Of a DNA stretch of 64,000 nt, positions 3,008 through 61,494 are shown one piece after another (within the stretch, counting starts at the first letter, position 1; each line of letters opens with the position of its first letter). This DNA comes from Alteromonadaceae bacterium (GTDB lineage: Bacteria; Pseudomonadota; Gammaproteobacteria; Enterobacterales; Alteromonadaceae), in assembly GCA_014872785.1 (NCBI GenBank), contig WKFJ01000065.1, forward strand, positions 1-64,000. Reading direction: 5' to 3'. The position numbers and the translations under genes are program-made. The notes beneath the pieces are model-generated. The model ran no database searches, was not told where the DNA came from, and saw only the letters and a program-made list of their open reading frames with translations.

Positions 3008-4321
3008 ATGTTTAGTTATTATATTAAGCTCGCCATGCTGAGCATAAAACGCAATCCAGTACTCAGTGCGCTTATGGTATTTGCCATCGCACTTGGTATC
3101 GGTGCCTGCATGACCACCATTACCGTCAACTACTTGATGTCTAATAATCCCATCAAGAGCAAAAGTGATGTTCTATTTCACGTGCAGTTAGATAACTGGA
3201 GTCCTTTTAATGCGGCCAGAGACCCAGACCAGCCTCCACTGCAGTTAACCTGGGTAGATGCCAACAACTTGCAAAAAGCAGGAAAAGCTTTTCGCCAAGC
3301 GGCTATGGCGCGCTCTGGTGGCGTGATCCAGCCGGAAAACCCTGACGTCAAACCCTTTCAGGACTCATTCCGTTTAACCTACACCGACTTTTTCACCATG
3401 TTCAATGTTCCTTTTATCTATGGCTCAGGCTGGGACAAGCAAGCAGATGAAAATGCCGAGTTCGTAACGGTATTATCGCGGCGTATCAACGATGAGGTGT
3501 TTGGTGGTGAAAACTCGGTGGGTAAGACGATTACCATTGTTGGACAAACATTCCGCGTGGTTGGTGTCATTGATGAATGGCACCCAGTACCCAAGTTCTT
3601 TGATTTAAACAATGATGATTTTGGTGAGCCAAGTGCCTTATTCATGCCACTTTCGCTCAAATTACCATTGGAGTTACCCTCATGGGGCAATACCAATTGC
3701 TGGAAATCGCCCGAAGGCGAAGGATTCGTCGCATTCATGAATTCCGAGTGTGTTCACCTGCAATATTGGGTGGAATTAAAAGATGCCAGCGAGCGTGATT
3801 CTTACCTTGATTTCGTCAACAGCTACGTTAACGAACAAAAAGAACTTGGCCGCTTCCCTCGCCCATTAAACAACAAAATGAGTAATGTTCAGGAATGGCT
3901 TGAATACAACGAAGTCGTTGCCGACGACGCCAAGATGATGATGTGGCTGTCTCTTATGTTCTTGTTGGTATGCTTGCTCAATACCATCGGTTTAATGCTG
4001 TCCAAGTTCATGGGTAAATCCAGTGAAATTGGCCTACGTCGCGCCGTCGGTGCAACTAAACGCGATTTGTTTTATCAACACTTAGTAGAAACTGCGTGTA
4101 TTGGTTTGGCCGGAGGTTTGCTGGGGCTAGTGATGTCTTACTTTGGTCTTCAAGGCATACGCTTGCTCTACGGTGAATTTGCCGATCGCCTAACTTCCTT
4201 GGATGGCAACATGGTATTGCTTGCAATTACTATCTCAGTGTTCGCAACAGTAATTGCTGGTGTTTATCCAACATGGCGCGCAAGCTCAATTGCCCCAGCA
4301 GGCCAACTTAAGAGTCAATAA
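3008..4321 (+). CDS. MacB-like ABC transporter permease 1
   Basis: 437-residue FtsX/MacB permease. It has one N-terminal transmembrane helix (about residues 17-42), a large periplasmic domain (MacB_PCD, about residues 43-310), then three C-terminal helices. The third-from-last helix is followed by the cytoplasmic GLRRAVGATKRDLFYQHLVET coupling helix that contacts the ATPase. The C-terminus ends in YPTWRASSIAPAGQLKSQ, the usual family tail. It lies 9 bp after the ATPase and 10 bp before a second, diverged permease, so the working pump is probably a permease heterodimer rather than a MacB homodimer with a fused ATPase. Confidence 0.85.
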   Translation: MFSYYIKLAMLSIKRNPVLSALMVFAIALGIGACMTTITVNYLMSNNPIKSKSDVLFHVQLDNWSPFNAARDPDQPPLQLTWVDANNLQKAGKAFRQAAMARSGGVIQPENPDVKPFQDSFRLTYTDFFTMFNVPFIYGSGWDKQADENAEFVTVLSRRINDEVFGGENSVGKTITIVGQTFRVVGVIDEWHPVPKFFDLNNDDFGEPSALFMPLSLKLPLELPSWGNTNCWKSPEGEGFVAFMNSECVHLQYWVELKDASERDSYLDFVNSYVNEQKELGRFPRPLNNKMSNVQEWLEYNEVVADDAKMMMWLSLMFLLVCLLNTIGLMLSKFMGKSSEIGLRRAVGATKRDLFYQHLVETACIGLAGGLLGLVMSYFGLQGIRLLYGEFADRLTSLDGNMVLLAITISVFATVIAGVYPTWRASSIAPAGQLKSQ

Positions 4322-4331
4322 GGAGTCATTC

Positions 4332-5561
4332 ATGTTAGGAACTTTAGAAATGGGGCCAATCATCCGCAGTTTGACCCGAAATAAAACAGGTGCAGTACTC
4401 ATCGCATTGCAAATCGCAGTAACCATGGCAATCGTGCTCAATGCTGTATTTATTATTGGTGAGCGCAATGACTTAATTGCCAGAGTCAGTGGTGTTGATG
4501 AAGCGAATAGCTTTCAAATTAGCAGCACCGGCTTCGCCTCAGACTTTAACCATATGCAAACGCTTGAGCAAGATTTGCTAGACATTCGCGCTATTCCAGG
4601 TGTCGTGGCAGTCACCACAATTAACGCCATCCCAACCAGTGGTAGCGGCTGGTCAATGTCGTTGCAAACCGAGTCTGGTGAGAATAAAACCGATGTTGGA
4701 ACTGCCGTTTATATGGTGGATCAAAATGGTATTGAGGCGCTTAGTGTTGAGCTCATTGCCGGTAGTAACTTTAGCGAAAATGAAATTCGCTACCGCGATG
4801 GCAACCAGGAAGGTTGGCCGCAAAACATTATCATTACTAAAGCATTGGCAAACGACATGTTTCCTGAACTGGATTATGCCGAAGTCGTGGGTAAGACCGT
4901 CTATATCAACTACACTGAGCCAATGCAAATCATTGGGATTATCGACCAATTGCAGGCGCCGTGGATTGGCTGGAACAAGCTAGAAAACGCAATGCTCTCA
5001 CCTGAACATATAGCGTCGGGTGATTTCTCTCGTTACTTCGTCAGAACCGAGCCAGGTATGCGCGATGATATTATGTTGCAAGTAGAAGAACTATTAGCAA
5101 AACGTGCAAATGAGCGCTTAGTTGAAGGATTACGCAGTTTTGAAGAGGTACGTGAACGCAGTTACAGTCGTCACGAAGCTATGATTCAAATCCTATTTGT
5201 GGTGATGATTACACTAGTGAGTATTACCGGTAAAGGAATTGTTGGGCTGGCAAGCTTTAACGTAAACCGTCGTAGAAAACAAATTGGTACGCGTCGTGCC
5301 CTTGGTGCCAGTAAAGCGCAAATAATTCGTTATTTCATGGTGGAAAACTTTCTGATTACGACCTTTGGTATTGTGCTAGGTATGGCAATGACCATGGGCT
5401 TAAACATGACCTTGGTCAGTGTTTTTGAACTGGGAAGAATGAACCTGATGTATTTACCATTGGGCGCAATTTGTTTTTGGTTGCTAGGACAATTAGCTGT
5501 ATTTGGCCCTGCAATTAAAGCGGCTTCAACACCACCGGCGCTTGCCACGCGAACGGTGTAA
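4332..5561 (+). CDS. MacB-like ABC transporter permease 2
   Basis: 409-residue permease, paralogous in layout to the preceding gene: N-terminal helix (about residues 18-39), MacB_PCD periplasmic domain, three C-terminal helices and a coupling-helix motif QIGTRRALGASKAQIIRYFM. The ATG at 4332 is preceded by AGGAG (4321-4325), which overlaps the stop of permease 1. The frame is open upstream to 4254 but that part overlaps the previous gene and has no start signal. Last gene of the operon, followed by a terminator at 5592-5622. Confidence 0.85.
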   Translation: MLGTLEMGPIIRSLTRNKTGAVLIALQIAVTMAIVLNAVFIIGERNDLIARVSGVDEANSFQISSTGFASDFNHMQTLEQDLLDIRAIPGVVAVTTINAIPTSGSGWSMSLQTESGENKTDVGTAVYMVDQNGIEALSVELIAGSNFSENEIRYRDGNQEGWPQNIIITKALANDMFPELDYAEVVGKTVYINYTEPMQIIGIIDQLQAPWIGWNKLENAMLSPEHIASGDFSRYFVRTEPGMRDDIMLQVEELLAKRANERLVEGLRSFEEVRERSYSRHEAMIQILFVVMITLVSITGKGIVGLASFNVNRRRKQIGTRRALGASKAQIIRYFMVENFLITTFGIVLGMAMTMGLNMTLVSVFELGRMNLMYLPLGAICFWLLGQLAVFGPAIKAASTPPALATRTV

Positions 5562-6470: not shown

Positions 6471-6532
6471 ATTTCCTCTATTTTGTAGAATATATTTGTA
6501 AATCATTTCCATTTCCTCTACTTTGTATAATA
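6471..6532 (+). promoter_or_regulatory. Duplicated operator-like motif before the PadR operon
   Basis: A 22-bp motif ATTTCCTCTAtTTTGTAgAATA at 6471-6492 recurs as ATTTCCTCTAcTTTGTAtAATA at 6511-6532, exactly 40 bp apart (about four helical turns). The second copy contains a TATAAT-like -10 region (TATAATA) 21 bp before the padR ATG. PadR proteins usually repress their own operon, so these are the natural candidate binding sites. This is inference from position and repetition. Confidence 0.5.
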
Positions 6533-6552
6533 AATAATGTAATAGCGTAGTT

Positions 6553-6885
6553 ATGTCCGATAAGAATTCACATCTGGGCGAATTTGAGCACTTGTTACTT
6601 TTGGCCTTAATGCAGTTAGGCGGCAAAAGTCATGGCACACTCATTCGTCACAATTTAAAAGACCTGGTAAACCGAGACGCCTCCATTGGTGCGCTTTACG
6701 CCACACTTGAACGCATGGAAAAGAAAGGCTATGTCACATCCTCAGTGGGCGAGCCTACAGCAGAACGTGGCGGGCGCGCGAAGCGTTATTTTGAGGTTAC
6801 AGCTGAAGGTAAGAAACTACTAAAACAAACCAAGAAGAACTTAGAGGTGATGTGGCAAGGGGTGCAGTTGTGGCAGAACCTGTAA
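6553..6885 (+). CDS. PadR family transcriptional regulator
   Basis: 110-residue winged-helix regulator with the PadR layout: GEFEHLLLLALMQLGGKSHGTLI (helix 1-2), ASIGALYATLERMEKKGYV (recognition helix and wing start), ERGGRAKRYFEVTAEGKKLL (wing and C-terminal helix). It lacks a long C-terminal ligand/dimer domain, so it belongs to the short PadR-s2 type. First gene of a three-gene operon with overlapping reading frames; it is likely to repress that operon through the duplicated motif at 6471-6532. PadR regulators of this short type often sit in front of permease-prefix-domain transporters, which matches the next gene. Confidence 0.85.
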   Translation: MSDKNSHLGEFEHLLLLALMQLGGKSHGTLIRHNLKDLVNRDASIGALYATLERMEKKGYVTSSVGEPTAERGGRAKRYFEVTAEGKKLLKQTKKNLEVMWQGVQLWQNL

Positions 6886-7550
6886 AACAAGAAAAGCAGC
6901 CTCCACGTCTCGCACAGCGCATTTTGAGTCTTTCAATTCCCATATCTATTAGAGAGCAACTCATCGGGGATTTGATTGAAGAGTACTACATTTTTCAAGC
7001 ACCTGAACGAGGCACTGTTGCCGCAGATCTATGGTTTTGGAAGCAAACTATTTTAAGTACCTACGAATATTTAAATAAACAACAAGGTGGCATTATTATG
7101 TTCACGATCAGTCTTTTCATTTTTGTCGCAATAATTGCTCTAGCAATGGTAATGGGAGGCGAACTAGGTATTTTTATCGATATTCCTATTTTGCTTATTA
7201 CTCTTTTACCCGCCATTGCTTTTGCCATCGCGAGCACTGGAAAAAACACAATTAAAGCGTCCTTTAAGTACTTATTCAGTGAACAAAGCCACCCCGGAGA
7301 AGCCTCTGTTAAAAATGCAATTCGCTTTTGGACAGTATTTGGCAATACCAGTGTGCTTATGGGTTGGATACTTTTTTTCATCGCACTTGCCAGTATCGGC
7401 AGTACACTGTTTACAGATCCGACCCATCATCACGTAATTGCCAGTAGCGGTTTTGTCACTAAATCTCTGATGTACGCTTCAATCGCAAAATTGCTTGGTT
7501 ACGTTTGCAGCCAGCGTATTGAGCGTCTTTTTAGTGGGGATAACACATGA
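6852..7550 (+). CDS. Permease-prefix-domain protein fused to a MotA-like membrane domain
   Basis: 232-residue protein starting at GTG 6852 inside the padR 3' end (a GTG at 6870 is the alternative). Residues 17-68 (PPRLAQRILSLSIP, REQLIGDLIEEYYIF, ADLWFWKQ) match the 'permease prefix domain 2' pattern normally fused to large FtsX-type ABC permeases. Here it is instead followed by four predicted helices (about 76-97, 100-125, 160-185, 197-216) with a GG-ELGIFIDIPILLITLLPA segment resembling the start of MotA-type stator proteins. The same arrangement of helices recurs in the next protein. No MotB/ExbD partner is nearby. Function unknown; a small channel, or a regulated membrane sensor controlled with PadR, are both possible. 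Confidence 0.6.
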   Translation: MARGAVVAEPVKQEKQPPRLAQRILSLSIPISIREQLIGDLIEEYYIFQAPERGTVAADLWFWKQTILSTYEYLNKQQGGIIMFTISLFIFVAIIALAMVMGGELGIFIDIPILLITLLPAIAFAIASTGKNTIKASFKYLFSEQSHPGEASVKNAIRFWTVFGNTSVLMGWILFFIALASIGSTLFTDPTHHHVIASSGFVTKSLMYASIAKLLGYVCSQRIERLFSGDNT

Positions 7551-8020
7551 GTGTGTTTATTAGCTTGATACTTTTCAGCCTAGTGATTGTCTTTACGCCC
7601 TACTTTTTAAATAAGGACATTACCTATCTAATCAATATTCCAAGTGCGATGATTGTATTTCCAGTCACCTACTTTTTCGCAATTGGAATAGTTACCGCCA
7701 AACAAGGAAACATGGCTTTAAAATCAGTGTTTCACCTAGAACGTTTGAACCAAACACAGCTAGAAAACAGCAAAGTATTCTTCAAAATTTGCGGCGACCT
7801 CAGTATCGCTATCGGGATTATAGGTGTATTCATAGGCCTGGTTGCAATGGCGCATTATGTCTGGGATGAACCAAAAGCATTTGGATCAGCACTAGCCGTA
7901 TGCATACTGACTATTTTGTACGGCTTATGGGCGAAGCTTCCCTTTTACGTGCTCGAACAAAAATGTGAATTTTTATTAGAATCAATAGCTTCCACGCAGA
8001 CTAAAACCGAACATTTTTAA
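7547..8020 (+). CDS. Small MotA-like four-helix membrane protein
   Basis: 157-residue inner-membrane protein overlapping the previous stop as ATGA (7547-7550), so translation is probably coupled. It aligns by eye with the membrane half of the preceding protein: LINIPSAMIVFPVTYFFAIG corresponds to IDIPILLITLLPAIAFAIAS, and the FFKICGDLSIAIGIIGVFIGLV segment to the third helix there. The segment IGIIGVFIGLVAMA followed by GSALAVCILTILYGLWAK strongly recalls the TM3-TM4 region of MotA/ExbB/TolQ proteins (GLIGTVxGL ... ALLTTLYG). No charged C-terminal motor domain is present. Likely forms a complex with its paralogue; the role is unknown. Confidence 0.6.
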   Translation: MSVFISLILFSLVIVFTPYFLNKDITYLINIPSAMIVFPVTYFFAIGIVTAKQGNMALKSVFHLERLNQTQLENSKVFFKICGDLSIAIGIIGVFIGLVAMAHYVWDEPKAFGSALAVCILTILYGLWAKLPFYVLEQKCEFLLESIASTQTKTEHF

Positions 8021-27400: not shown

Positions 27401-28090
27401 TTAACCTGCCGTTTTATGATTAGCCAATGCCTGACGGTGTAAAATACTGGAAAACTCTTCCATGAAATTTGCATAGCTGGTTTCCAGCTTTTCCACTCGG
27501 TGACTGAACCGGTTGTACGCAATGACCGAAGGTATCGCTGCAAACAAGCCCATTGCCGTCGCAATGAGTGCCTCAGCAATACCGGGAGCAACCATTTGTA
27601 AGGTAGCTTGTTGTACTTCACCTAGTGCGATAAACGCGGTCATGATTCCCCACACCGTACCAAACAAGCCAATGTAAGGGCTTATCGAACCCGCTGTGGC
27701 TAAAAATGGTAGGTGACTCTCTAAGTTATCAACTTCTCGTGATAGAGAAACCCGCATCGCCCTGTGCGTACCTTCCATAATGGCTTCAGGCAAAGATGAA
27801 GCGTTTTTGCTTAGTCGAACAAACTCTTTGAATCCCGCGCAAAAAACAGCTGCCATTCCAGGTACAGTTTGGCGCGCCGATAATTCTTGGTACAAACGGT
27901 TCAAGTCAGCTCCTGACCAAAATCGATCCTCGAATTTTTTTACTTCAGAGTTAGCGTCGTTAAGCGCCTTACTTCTTTGAAAGATAAAGGTCCATGACAT
28001 AATGGAGATGATAAGTAACAACAACATGACCAGTTGCACAAGCAAGCTTGCCTGCAAAAACAGGTCAAAGAATGACATTTCAGACGACAC
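27401..28090 (-). CDS. tolQ: Tol-Pal system protein TolQ
   Basis: 229-residue MotA/ExbB-type channel protein with three helices (about 14-36, 138-160, 172-195). LDLF-like N-terminus [38 protein letters not shown] and [24 protein letters not shown] are family hallmarks. The start is taken as GTG 28090, overlapping the ybgC stop by 11 bp, as in E. coli tolQ; an ATG four codons later (28078) is an alternative. Confidence 0.95.
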
Positions 28091-60888: not shown

Positions 60889-61494
60889 CTAGGTTTCAAT
60901 TTTAGTCGCGGTCACCACATAACGATATTCTGTATCTGTACTTACGCCATCAAACGGATAACAGGTCACCAGAGTCAGTTCGTTGCGCCAACTATTGTCC
61001 ATTAATTCTATTTGTGACTCATGTGCAATGCGCATGTTTTCTACTTTGTAAAGTTTACTGCCATGCATGGCATCTATTTCAATCAAGTCACCTTTTTCAA
61101 CATATTGCAGGAAGTTAAAATGAGTATCTCGATGGCCTATTAGGACGCTATTACCCATTTGGCCAGGGAATGCGGTATGGCTCATGTGTCCCGGGCCAAA
61201 CGCAATTACAGCATCTGTTGCTCCCGCCAACACATACAACTTTTGTTGATGCGCTGGAAATGTCATCACTGCAATAGGCCAAGTATCTGCCCAATACCGA
61301 GGGCGAGTGCGCTGTCCATGCTTAAGTTGACTTTCCCAGGCTTTAGCAATCAGTAGCTGTGCTAAATTCGCTTTTGCATGTATATAAACCCCTTTGCCAA
61401 ACATTACCGCGCCGATAATCACCAAAATCGCGATAAATGCATGTTTCCAGCGGTTATTATTTTCATAAGGCTTGTATGAAACATCACTAAACAT
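60889..61494 (-). CDS. Class GN sortase
   Basis: 201-residue cysteine transpeptidase of the marine proteobacterial type. One N-terminal helix (about 18-36), then the sortase barrel: His in VLIGHRDTHFNFL, nucleophile Cys in LTLVTCYPF and catalytic Arg in DTEYRYVVTA. Overlaps the end of its target gene by 8 bp, so the two are coupled. It should join the C-terminal MPQTAT-type signal of that protein to a cell-surface partner or cleave it. Confidence 0.92.
   Translation of the reverse strand: MFSDVSYKPYENNNRWKHAFIAILVIIGAVMFGKGVYIHAKANLAQLLIAKAWESQLKHGQRTRPRYWADTWPIAVMTFPAHQQKLYVLAGATDAVIAFGPGHMSHTAFPGQMGNSVLIGHRDTHFNFLQYVEKGDLIEIDAMHGSKLYKVENMRIAHESQIELMDNSWRNELTLVTCYPFDGVSTDTEYRYVVTATKIET

Follow-up and report, generated by a model that had tools for sequence, protein, structure and literature searches.

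A PadR-linked operon joins permease prefix domain 2 to a predicted PomA-type membrane module without the FliG-contacting parts

The window analysed here is a stretch of 64,000 nucleotides from an Alteromonadaceae bacterium (contig WKFJ01000065.1). It contains three overlapping genes on the same strand (Table 1), as the original prediction had described, and the coordinates of the open reading frames agree with that description. The overlap between padR and gene 2 amounts to 16 bases with the start GTG at 6870 and to 34 bases with GTG at 6852, while the end of gene 2 overlaps the start of gene 3 by 4 bases (ATGA). The reading of the first gene as a PadR regulator is confirmed by its Pfam match, as the score of 48 bits lies above the cut-off of 27 (PF03551). 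Gene 2 combines permease prefix domain 2 (PPD2) with a four-helix membrane part, termed mini-PomA here, and gene 3 encodes a free mini-PomA. No MotB/ExbD or ATPase gene was found in the operon, either in the list of open reading frames or in a Pfam scan of the operon frames. A Pfam scan places genes for a solute-binding protein and an FtsX/MacB-type permease on the 5' side of the operon and a gene for HMG-CoA reductase on its 3' side. The architecture of the operon is well supported, and its function we infer.

Two other membrane proteins of the window were noted. The FtsX/MacB-like permease (4254-5561, plus strand) ends about 1 kb 5' of padR, has strong Pfam matches to FtsX and MacB_PCD only and is probably unrelated to the PadR operon. 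A MotA_ExbB protein at 27473-27847 (minus strand) is an ordinary member in a 233-aa frame (E 2e-39), unlinked to the operon and perhaps TolQ.

Table 1. Features of the operon in the window
Feature	Position	Strand	Remark
Putative operator copy 1, CTATTTTGTAG, variant of palindrome CTACWWWGTAG	6478..6488	+	
Putative operator copy 2, CTACTTTGTAT	6518..6528	+	40 bases from copy 1
padR, PadR-family regulator, 110 aa	6553..6885	+	Pfam PadR E 1.3e-12
Gene 2, PPD2-mini-PomA, 226 aa	6870..7550	+	start GTG 6870, alternatively GTG 6852
PPD2 profile match in gene 2	6900-7052 (residues 11-61)	+	perm_prefix_2 E about 3.6e-6
Mini-PomA part of gene 2	7098-7547	+	four membrane helices
Putative internal start ATG in gene 2	7098..7100	+	behind AAGGTGG
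Gene 3, free mini-PomA, 157 aa, without PPD2	7547..8020	+	PomA model E 2.1e-12

PPD2 normally precedes permeases behind PadR regulators. Its presence in gene 2, proposed earlier from the letters alone, is upheld by a match to the NCBIfam model perm_prefix_2 (NF038404) with E about 3.7e-6, although the score of about 27 bits stays under the curated cut-off of 35. The same model is matched at E <= 0.01 by 26 of the 27 aligned members of the PadR-PPD2-mini-PomA family (clade 1), window included, and by all 19 scanned members of a sister PPD2 family (clade 2), with the clade-2 relative L116 reaching 41.9 bits. Gene 2 shares with the perm_prefix_2 proteins an N-terminal PPD2 of about 60 residues and an adjoining padR. 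However, these proteins carry a large permease, and in the genes described here a PomA-derived or other four-helix region takes its place; an FtsX-like permease is absent after the PPD2 of gene 2, where the membrane part is a mini-PomA. The suggestion of a module attachable to different membrane proteins is supported to the extent that PPD2 was found joined to mini-PomA, to a divergent four-helix region and, in a judgement made by eye, to a single predicted helix. Our search of the open-licence literature found no description of the term 'permease prefix domain'. Two loci (L166:2962-3339 and L167:2938-3330) have padR followed by a short PPD2 protein of 125-130 aa with apparently one membrane helix, that is, a PPD2 without a machine.

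The identity of the membrane part was established through its family. Alignment A6 combines gene 3 and the membrane part of gene 2 with 20 relatives, and the profile built from these 22 modules matches Vibrio PomA in the PDB with E 6e-19 in two collinear blocks, PomA residues 13-47 and 123-206, which correspond to helices 1-2 and helices 3-4. Gene 3 reaches PDB PomA on its own (E 2.2e-9, helices 3-4), as well as the NCBIfam PomA model (E 2.1e-12 over helices 3-4, 46.9 bits), and comes close to the gathering score of 22.9 of Pfam MotA_ExbB (E 2.4e-4, 21.3 bits). Gene 2 alone has E 0.054 and 12.8 bits against the PomA model, and it matches no Pfam family at E <= 1. It is the sole member among 27 without a PomA-model match at E <= 0.01, and the PomA assignment of gene 2 rests on the family, through which PDB PomA is reached with E 1.5e-15. 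The cut-off of the full-length PomA model NF006527 (341 bits) is far from reached by either protein, and MotA_ExbB (PF01618) is matched at E <= 0.01 by 12 of the 22 mini sequences.

Predicted structures point in the same direction. AlphaFold models of the monomers have a mean pLDDT of 86.3 for gene 2 and 80.5 for gene 3, and Foldseek placed MotA/PomA chains first for both, with best E values of 0.02 (gene 2) and 0.0011 (gene 3) so that neither model gave a hit with E <= 0.001. A second structural comparison, run with the gene 2 model, had MotA/PomA in all ten top places (Z 12-16), with TolQ at about 8. Since helical bundles can reach a Z of about 13 by arrangement alone, it is the sequence match that carries the PomA claim. 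An ExbB/TolQ identity instead of PomA was rejected on these scores (PomA E 6e-19; Z 12-16 against about 8). The MotA-like four-helix region seen earlier in both proteins is thus well founded through the family profile and the PomA match of gene 3, but weak for gene 2 taken alone. It can be sharpened to a PomA-type stator subunit minus the FliG-binding cytoplasmic domain, on the basis of the profile match and the FliG-contact residues described below.

Stator A subunits are torque generators with a rotor-contact domain. No stretch of the mini-PomA profile aligns to PomA residues about 48-122. The faces of PomA which contact FliG have been assigned to R88, K89, R232, D114 and E96, and truncation of its C-terminal helical motif is described as abolishing motility (PMC10374538). 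The missing segment holds four of the five reported contact residues (R88, K89, E96 and D114), and the mini-PomA match ends before R232 and the C-terminal helical motif; the cytoplasmic loop with the FliG-contact charges is therefore absent from mini-PomA in the family profile alignment. The ion path is retained in part. T158 is kept in 15 of 20 family rows and T185 in 18, whereas T186 and P151 are kept in none (position 186 is L in 16 rows), so that the threonine set of the Na+ site (T158/T185/T186) is incomplete in the family. Gene 3 has V at position 158 and keeps T185, and gene 2, with F at 158 and S at 185, keeps no threonine of the Na+ site.

We conclude from these alignments that the mini-PomA family is homologous to the sodium-stator subunit PomA. 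Judged by the alignments and the predicted models, it retains four membrane helices together with a portion of the ion-path motif, lacks both FliG-contacting elements (the cytoplasmic loop and the C-terminal helix), and carries PPD2 fused before helix 1, into which PPD2 runs in the gene 2 model. PomA and MotA structures (PDB 8brd, 8zyv and 8gqy) have the four membrane helices and the predicted fold in common with mini-PomA, and the helix 3-4 motif of PomA (G147, G154, G176, T185 and Y188) is largely kept. The differences are the absence of residues about 48-122 and of the C-terminal tail contacting FliG, the replacement of T186 and P151, the PPD2 fused in gene 2, and the lack of a B subunit gene in the operon. 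Core helices are common to mini-PomA and the MotA_ExbB superfamily (TolQ, ExbB, ZorA; PF01618), within which mini-PomA is closer to MotA/PomA than to TolQ/ExbB. Mini-PomA lacks features that define a functional stator subunit, and it is not to be classed as PomA.

The pair of padR and a PPD2-mini-PomA gene is conserved among relatives within the Alteromonadaceae, and the third gene was found only in the window. The first profile was matched at E <= 1e-10 in 43 of 395 genomes of the window's taxonomic family. Among the matches listed, 28 places in 27 genomes, own genome included, score 4.1e-50 or better; 27 of these have PPD2 with mini-PomA and one (G333) has mini-PomA alone. Weaker matches came from free minis, namely gene 3, a copy on contig C47 of the own genome, and G100. 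Surroundings were examined for 28 PPD2-mini genes (26 places of family relatives, the window, and G097 from the wider order), and padR lies directly upstream in 27 of them. No B subunit gene was seen in the clade-1 loci examined, and no further common neighbour was noticed among them by eye. The carriers are mostly marine bacteria, among them Alteromonas, Aliiglaciecola, Rheinheimera, Psychrosphaera, Agaribacter and Colwellia, as well as one Pseudomonadales MAG. Across 394 genomes sampled from the order, a full-length PPD2-mini gene is present in at least six (G046, G097, G452, G000, G549 and G485); 215 genomes match in all, and most of the others among the matches listed matched at PomA itself. 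In two other species of the window's genus the PadR-PPD2-mini pair lies less than 12 kb from the HMG-CoA reductase gene (78% identical), and therefore the place of the operon is probably old. Gene 2 is only 29-30% identical to the genes of these two species.

An almost invariant Met opens helix 1 of the membrane part, at the position where the free mini proteins also begin. Among 36 distinct PPD2-mini genes, a count that leaves aside the interrupted gene L164/L204, a start codon is present at helix 1 in 35: 32 have ATG at the column itself, one has GTG and two have ATG one codon earlier, and the lone exception is a truncated gene. At any other scanned column Met occurs in no more than 17 of 23 clusters. 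The Shine-Dalgarno energy in front of this position was compared with that of synonymous codons drawn at local usage, taking clusters under 60% identity as independent. Over 23 clusters the Stouffer value is -5.9, and in 21 of them the site surpasses the null median in strength. When 213 columns were scanned, the five lowest values (-5.0 to -6.4) were those of the five columns around the helix-1 start, and the next value was -2.7.

A K/R-rich stretch is expected before a membrane helix by the positive-inside rule, and the codons of such a stretch can be purine-rich. The conserved Met could accordingly be a mere part of helix 1 and the purine-rich stretch a mere basic segment, with no internal translation at all. 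The window gene would fit such an explanation, as its internal site is weaker than the synonymous expectation (z +0.81), yet its energy still places it within the top 2.4% of that gene. For the family as a whole we consider this explanation quite improbable. It is contradicted by the synonymous-codon null and by the column scan, and the Shine-Dalgarno-like site persists under differing residues (KRG, KGD, QGS and QGG). All 17 Arg codons in the R-G pairs of the site (28 genes) are CGA, AGA or AGG, a set which makes up 32% of local Arg codons, though CGG occurs at the site's Arg in two related genes added later. Moreover, genes in which the Met has been replaced still have a start, either GTG or an ATG placed one codon earlier. 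The codon evidence therefore strongly indicates that in most relatives one gene would give a long PPD2 form and, through the internal start, a short free mini-PomA; the internal start most probably marks a nested gene that also yields PPD2-free mini-PomA. Such an arrangement, with one gene, an internal start and a C-terminal short form, is described for nested-gene pairs such as SctQ/SpaO and Cas8/Cas11. The products of those systems are reported from experiments, whereas the short form described here is a predicted membrane subunit.

Gene 3 was predicted to be a paralogue of the membrane part of gene 2, and the two indeed match with E 2e-4 and 24% identity. In the alignment, gene 3 starts at most two residues from the position of the relatives' internal start. 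It retains most of the helix 3-4 family motif FGSALAVCILTILYG, much of which is gone from the gene 2 copy. Between gene 2 and L097, the relative nearest to it, identity is 67% in PPD2 and 33% in the membrane part, while 21 other pairs with a PPD2 identity of 0.55-0.80 show a mini-PomA identity of 41-70%. We infer that in the window the short product now comes from a separate third gene and that the membrane part of gene 2 has drifted, a division of labour in which gene 2 would provide the PPD2 form and gene 3 the free form. Gene 3 forms a long branch in the tree, which neither places it firmly nor shows it to derive from gene 2 by duplication.

The original prediction treated the three genes as one functional unit and proposed a neighbourhood survey for a conserved PadR linkage of the 157-residue protein. 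It mentioned neither the internal start nor the operators. The overlap of the frames was confirmed, but the conserved unit is the PadR-PPD2 pair, and the survey came out negative: gene 3 was beside the pair at none of the other loci seen. The idea that gene 3 is a conserved part of the operon was rejected, given that no free mini gene follows the PPD2-mini gene in the 27 other clade-1 loci or in further loci, with L091 not judgeable because its contig ends 140 bases downstream. Standalone minis do occur elsewhere, on contig C47 of the own genome (157 aa), in G333 (where PPD2 was not recognised in the frame), in G100, G549 and G073, and as a tandem pair in G037.

Upstream of padR there are palindromes of the form CTACWWWGTAG, mostly paired, which we take as the likely binding sites of PadR. 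The sequence TACNNNGTA is present in 49 of 64 padR-upstream regions against 2.7 in mononucleotide shuffles, the 64 regions being related to one another. With a relaxed pattern at least one copy was found in 62 of the 64 regions and a pair 30-60 bases apart, mostly 38-44, in 38; such a relaxed pair appeared in none of 200 shuffled sets. The 16-base unit TTTCCTCTAYTTTGTA occurs without mismatch at only two sites of the own genome, both before the padR of the window, which suggests autoregulation. When up to two mismatches to the unit are allowed there are 6 sites, and a reversed-pattern control also gives 6, so that only the exact pair is meaningful and other operator targets in the own genome were discarded. 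One site with a single mismatch lies at the end of a response-regulator-like gene. The pattern CTAYWWWGTA is also found in the window at 7911-7920, inside gene 3, and at 61041-61050. In total the window has four such sites against 1.6 expected; 8 of 100 shuffles reach four, and the extra sites are therefore possibly due to chance.

The sister family shows a link to stators. A clade-2 search of the same 395 genomes gave matches in 42 at E <= 1e-15, including clade-1 genes matched at their PPD2, and the best 30 of 35 full-length places were taken as clade-2 loci (in one of them, L227, the contig ends about 310 bases downstream). padR is present in all 30. In seven loci, counted as loci and not as independent origins, the gene order is PadR-PPD2-MotB-MotA (G001, G038, G182, G427, G327, G163 and G135, from six genera). 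Five of these genomes were also searched for MotB, and each has at least one further MotB; the MotB-MotA pair of the operon is therefore an additional stator there. The congener G002 has a sister clade-2 gene without MotB-MotA. The earlier statement that a MotB partner is missing is accordingly true of the window operon and of the clade-1 loci examined, where no MotB-MotA link was seen, but not of the wider PPD2 family. The membrane part of clade 2 aligned to mini-PomA by hhalign with P 0.003 and a probability of 11% (reversed control P 0.33), which is only suggestive of a mini-PomA. A class-wide sample was also searched for clade 2, and apart from the own genome none of its 368 genomes matched at E <= 1e-10. 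Separately, two congeners of the window species were seen to have two MotB genes each.

Our preferred reading, to which we assign a probability of roughly 45%, is that the operon is a PadR-controlled cassette for torque-less PomA-type subunits acting as accessories or competitors of flagellar-type stators. PadR would be bound to the CTACWWWGTAG palindromes, and its release would derepress the synthesis of the long PPD2-mini-PomA and the short free mini-PomA. Both forms may then assemble into a ring of the PomA kind, either by themselves, together with PomA or with a MotB/PomB dimer from elsewhere at its centre, with PPD2 as the cytoplasmic handle of the ring. Such a ring would be unable to grip FliG and would therefore lower or retune flagellar stator activity, either because it competes for B subunits or because it poisons PomA rings. 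A role at stators is supported by the sister PadR-PPD2-MotB-MotA operons, since these pair a PPD2 protein with an additional stator. Against the stator-modulator reading, the MotB-MotA link sits in the sister clade, whose membrane part is weakly alignable to mini-PomA. The window itself also speaks against it, with its weak internal site, the loss of T158 from both copies and the poor PomA-model score of gene 2 alone, as does the lack of Foldseek matches at E <= 0.001. FliG was found in 29 of 30 genomes, a raw count judged uninformative on co-occurrence with flagella, and it is present in the own assembly (G000). In that assembly, a draft of 94% completeness, neither a MotB_plug match nor a full PomA was found by protein search. 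The missing PomA and MotB are probably a gap in the draft, though it could also be that there is no flagellar stator to modulate. A broader picture, which we put forward only tentatively, is that the nested genes encode torque-less PomA rings with PadR-linked PPD2 on the long subunits. Such rings would be an ion machine derived from the stator, or a brake on stators, whose cytoplasmic output is new and whose subunits come in two forms from one frame; the window species would have split these forms into two genes.

Another explanation takes the membrane protein as a sensor for PadR: PPD2 would bind PadR, the membrane part would sense the state of the envelope or the ion motive force, and the operon would mainly regulate itself and a few other genes. 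The adjacency of padR to PPD2 in 27 of 28 clade-1 and 30 of 30 clade-2 loci, whatever the membrane part and including L166 and L167, is what such a sensor would predict. It is nevertheless doubtful, as it leaves the conserved PPD2-free product, the standalone minis and the MotB-MotA operons unexplained, and the exact 16-base unit occurs in the own genome only at the PadR operon. A stand-alone, non-flagellar ion-driven machine, in which mini-PomA rings turn round an unlinked B subunit with PPD2 as output domain instead of the FliG-binding one, appears unlikely. The family has largely kept the ion-path motif GP.A....LT..YG while the rotor-contact part is gone, PPD2 running into helix 1 could be an output domain if the topology deduced from the model is correct, and long and short forms together would give a ring with few PPD2 arms. 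However, T186 and P151 are lost in all 20 family rows, and the clade-1 loci offer neither a B subunit nor, by eye, any other shared neighbour. That genes 2 and 3 are fragments of one decayed permease, an idea to which the naming of PPD2 for its place before permeases (NCBIfam description) might lead and which the original prediction gave as its own refutation, can be dismissed as vanishingly improbable, because the architecture recurs in 36 distinct genes and the PomA model finds 26 of the 27 scanned members at E <= 0.01.

The open-licence literature, judged by titles and opening lines, yielded no account of an operon of this kind. A conserved, regulated family that keeps the membrane ring and sheds the torque part would be either a natural throttle on flagellar stators or a second use of their rotary core. 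The nested start together with the split copy of the window would provide a simple test bed for subunit stoichiometry, and the PadR-PPD2-MotB-MotA operons a handle on the role of the permease prefix domain. Among the free minis, the second one of the own genome (G000:C47:204177-204617; L114:6172-6645), 157 aa in length, has no adjoining padR or PPD2 and groups in the tree with the L097 module. The tandem pair (L113:4868-5918, in G037) consists of free mini-stator genes for 165 and 195 aa, likewise without PPD2 or padR.
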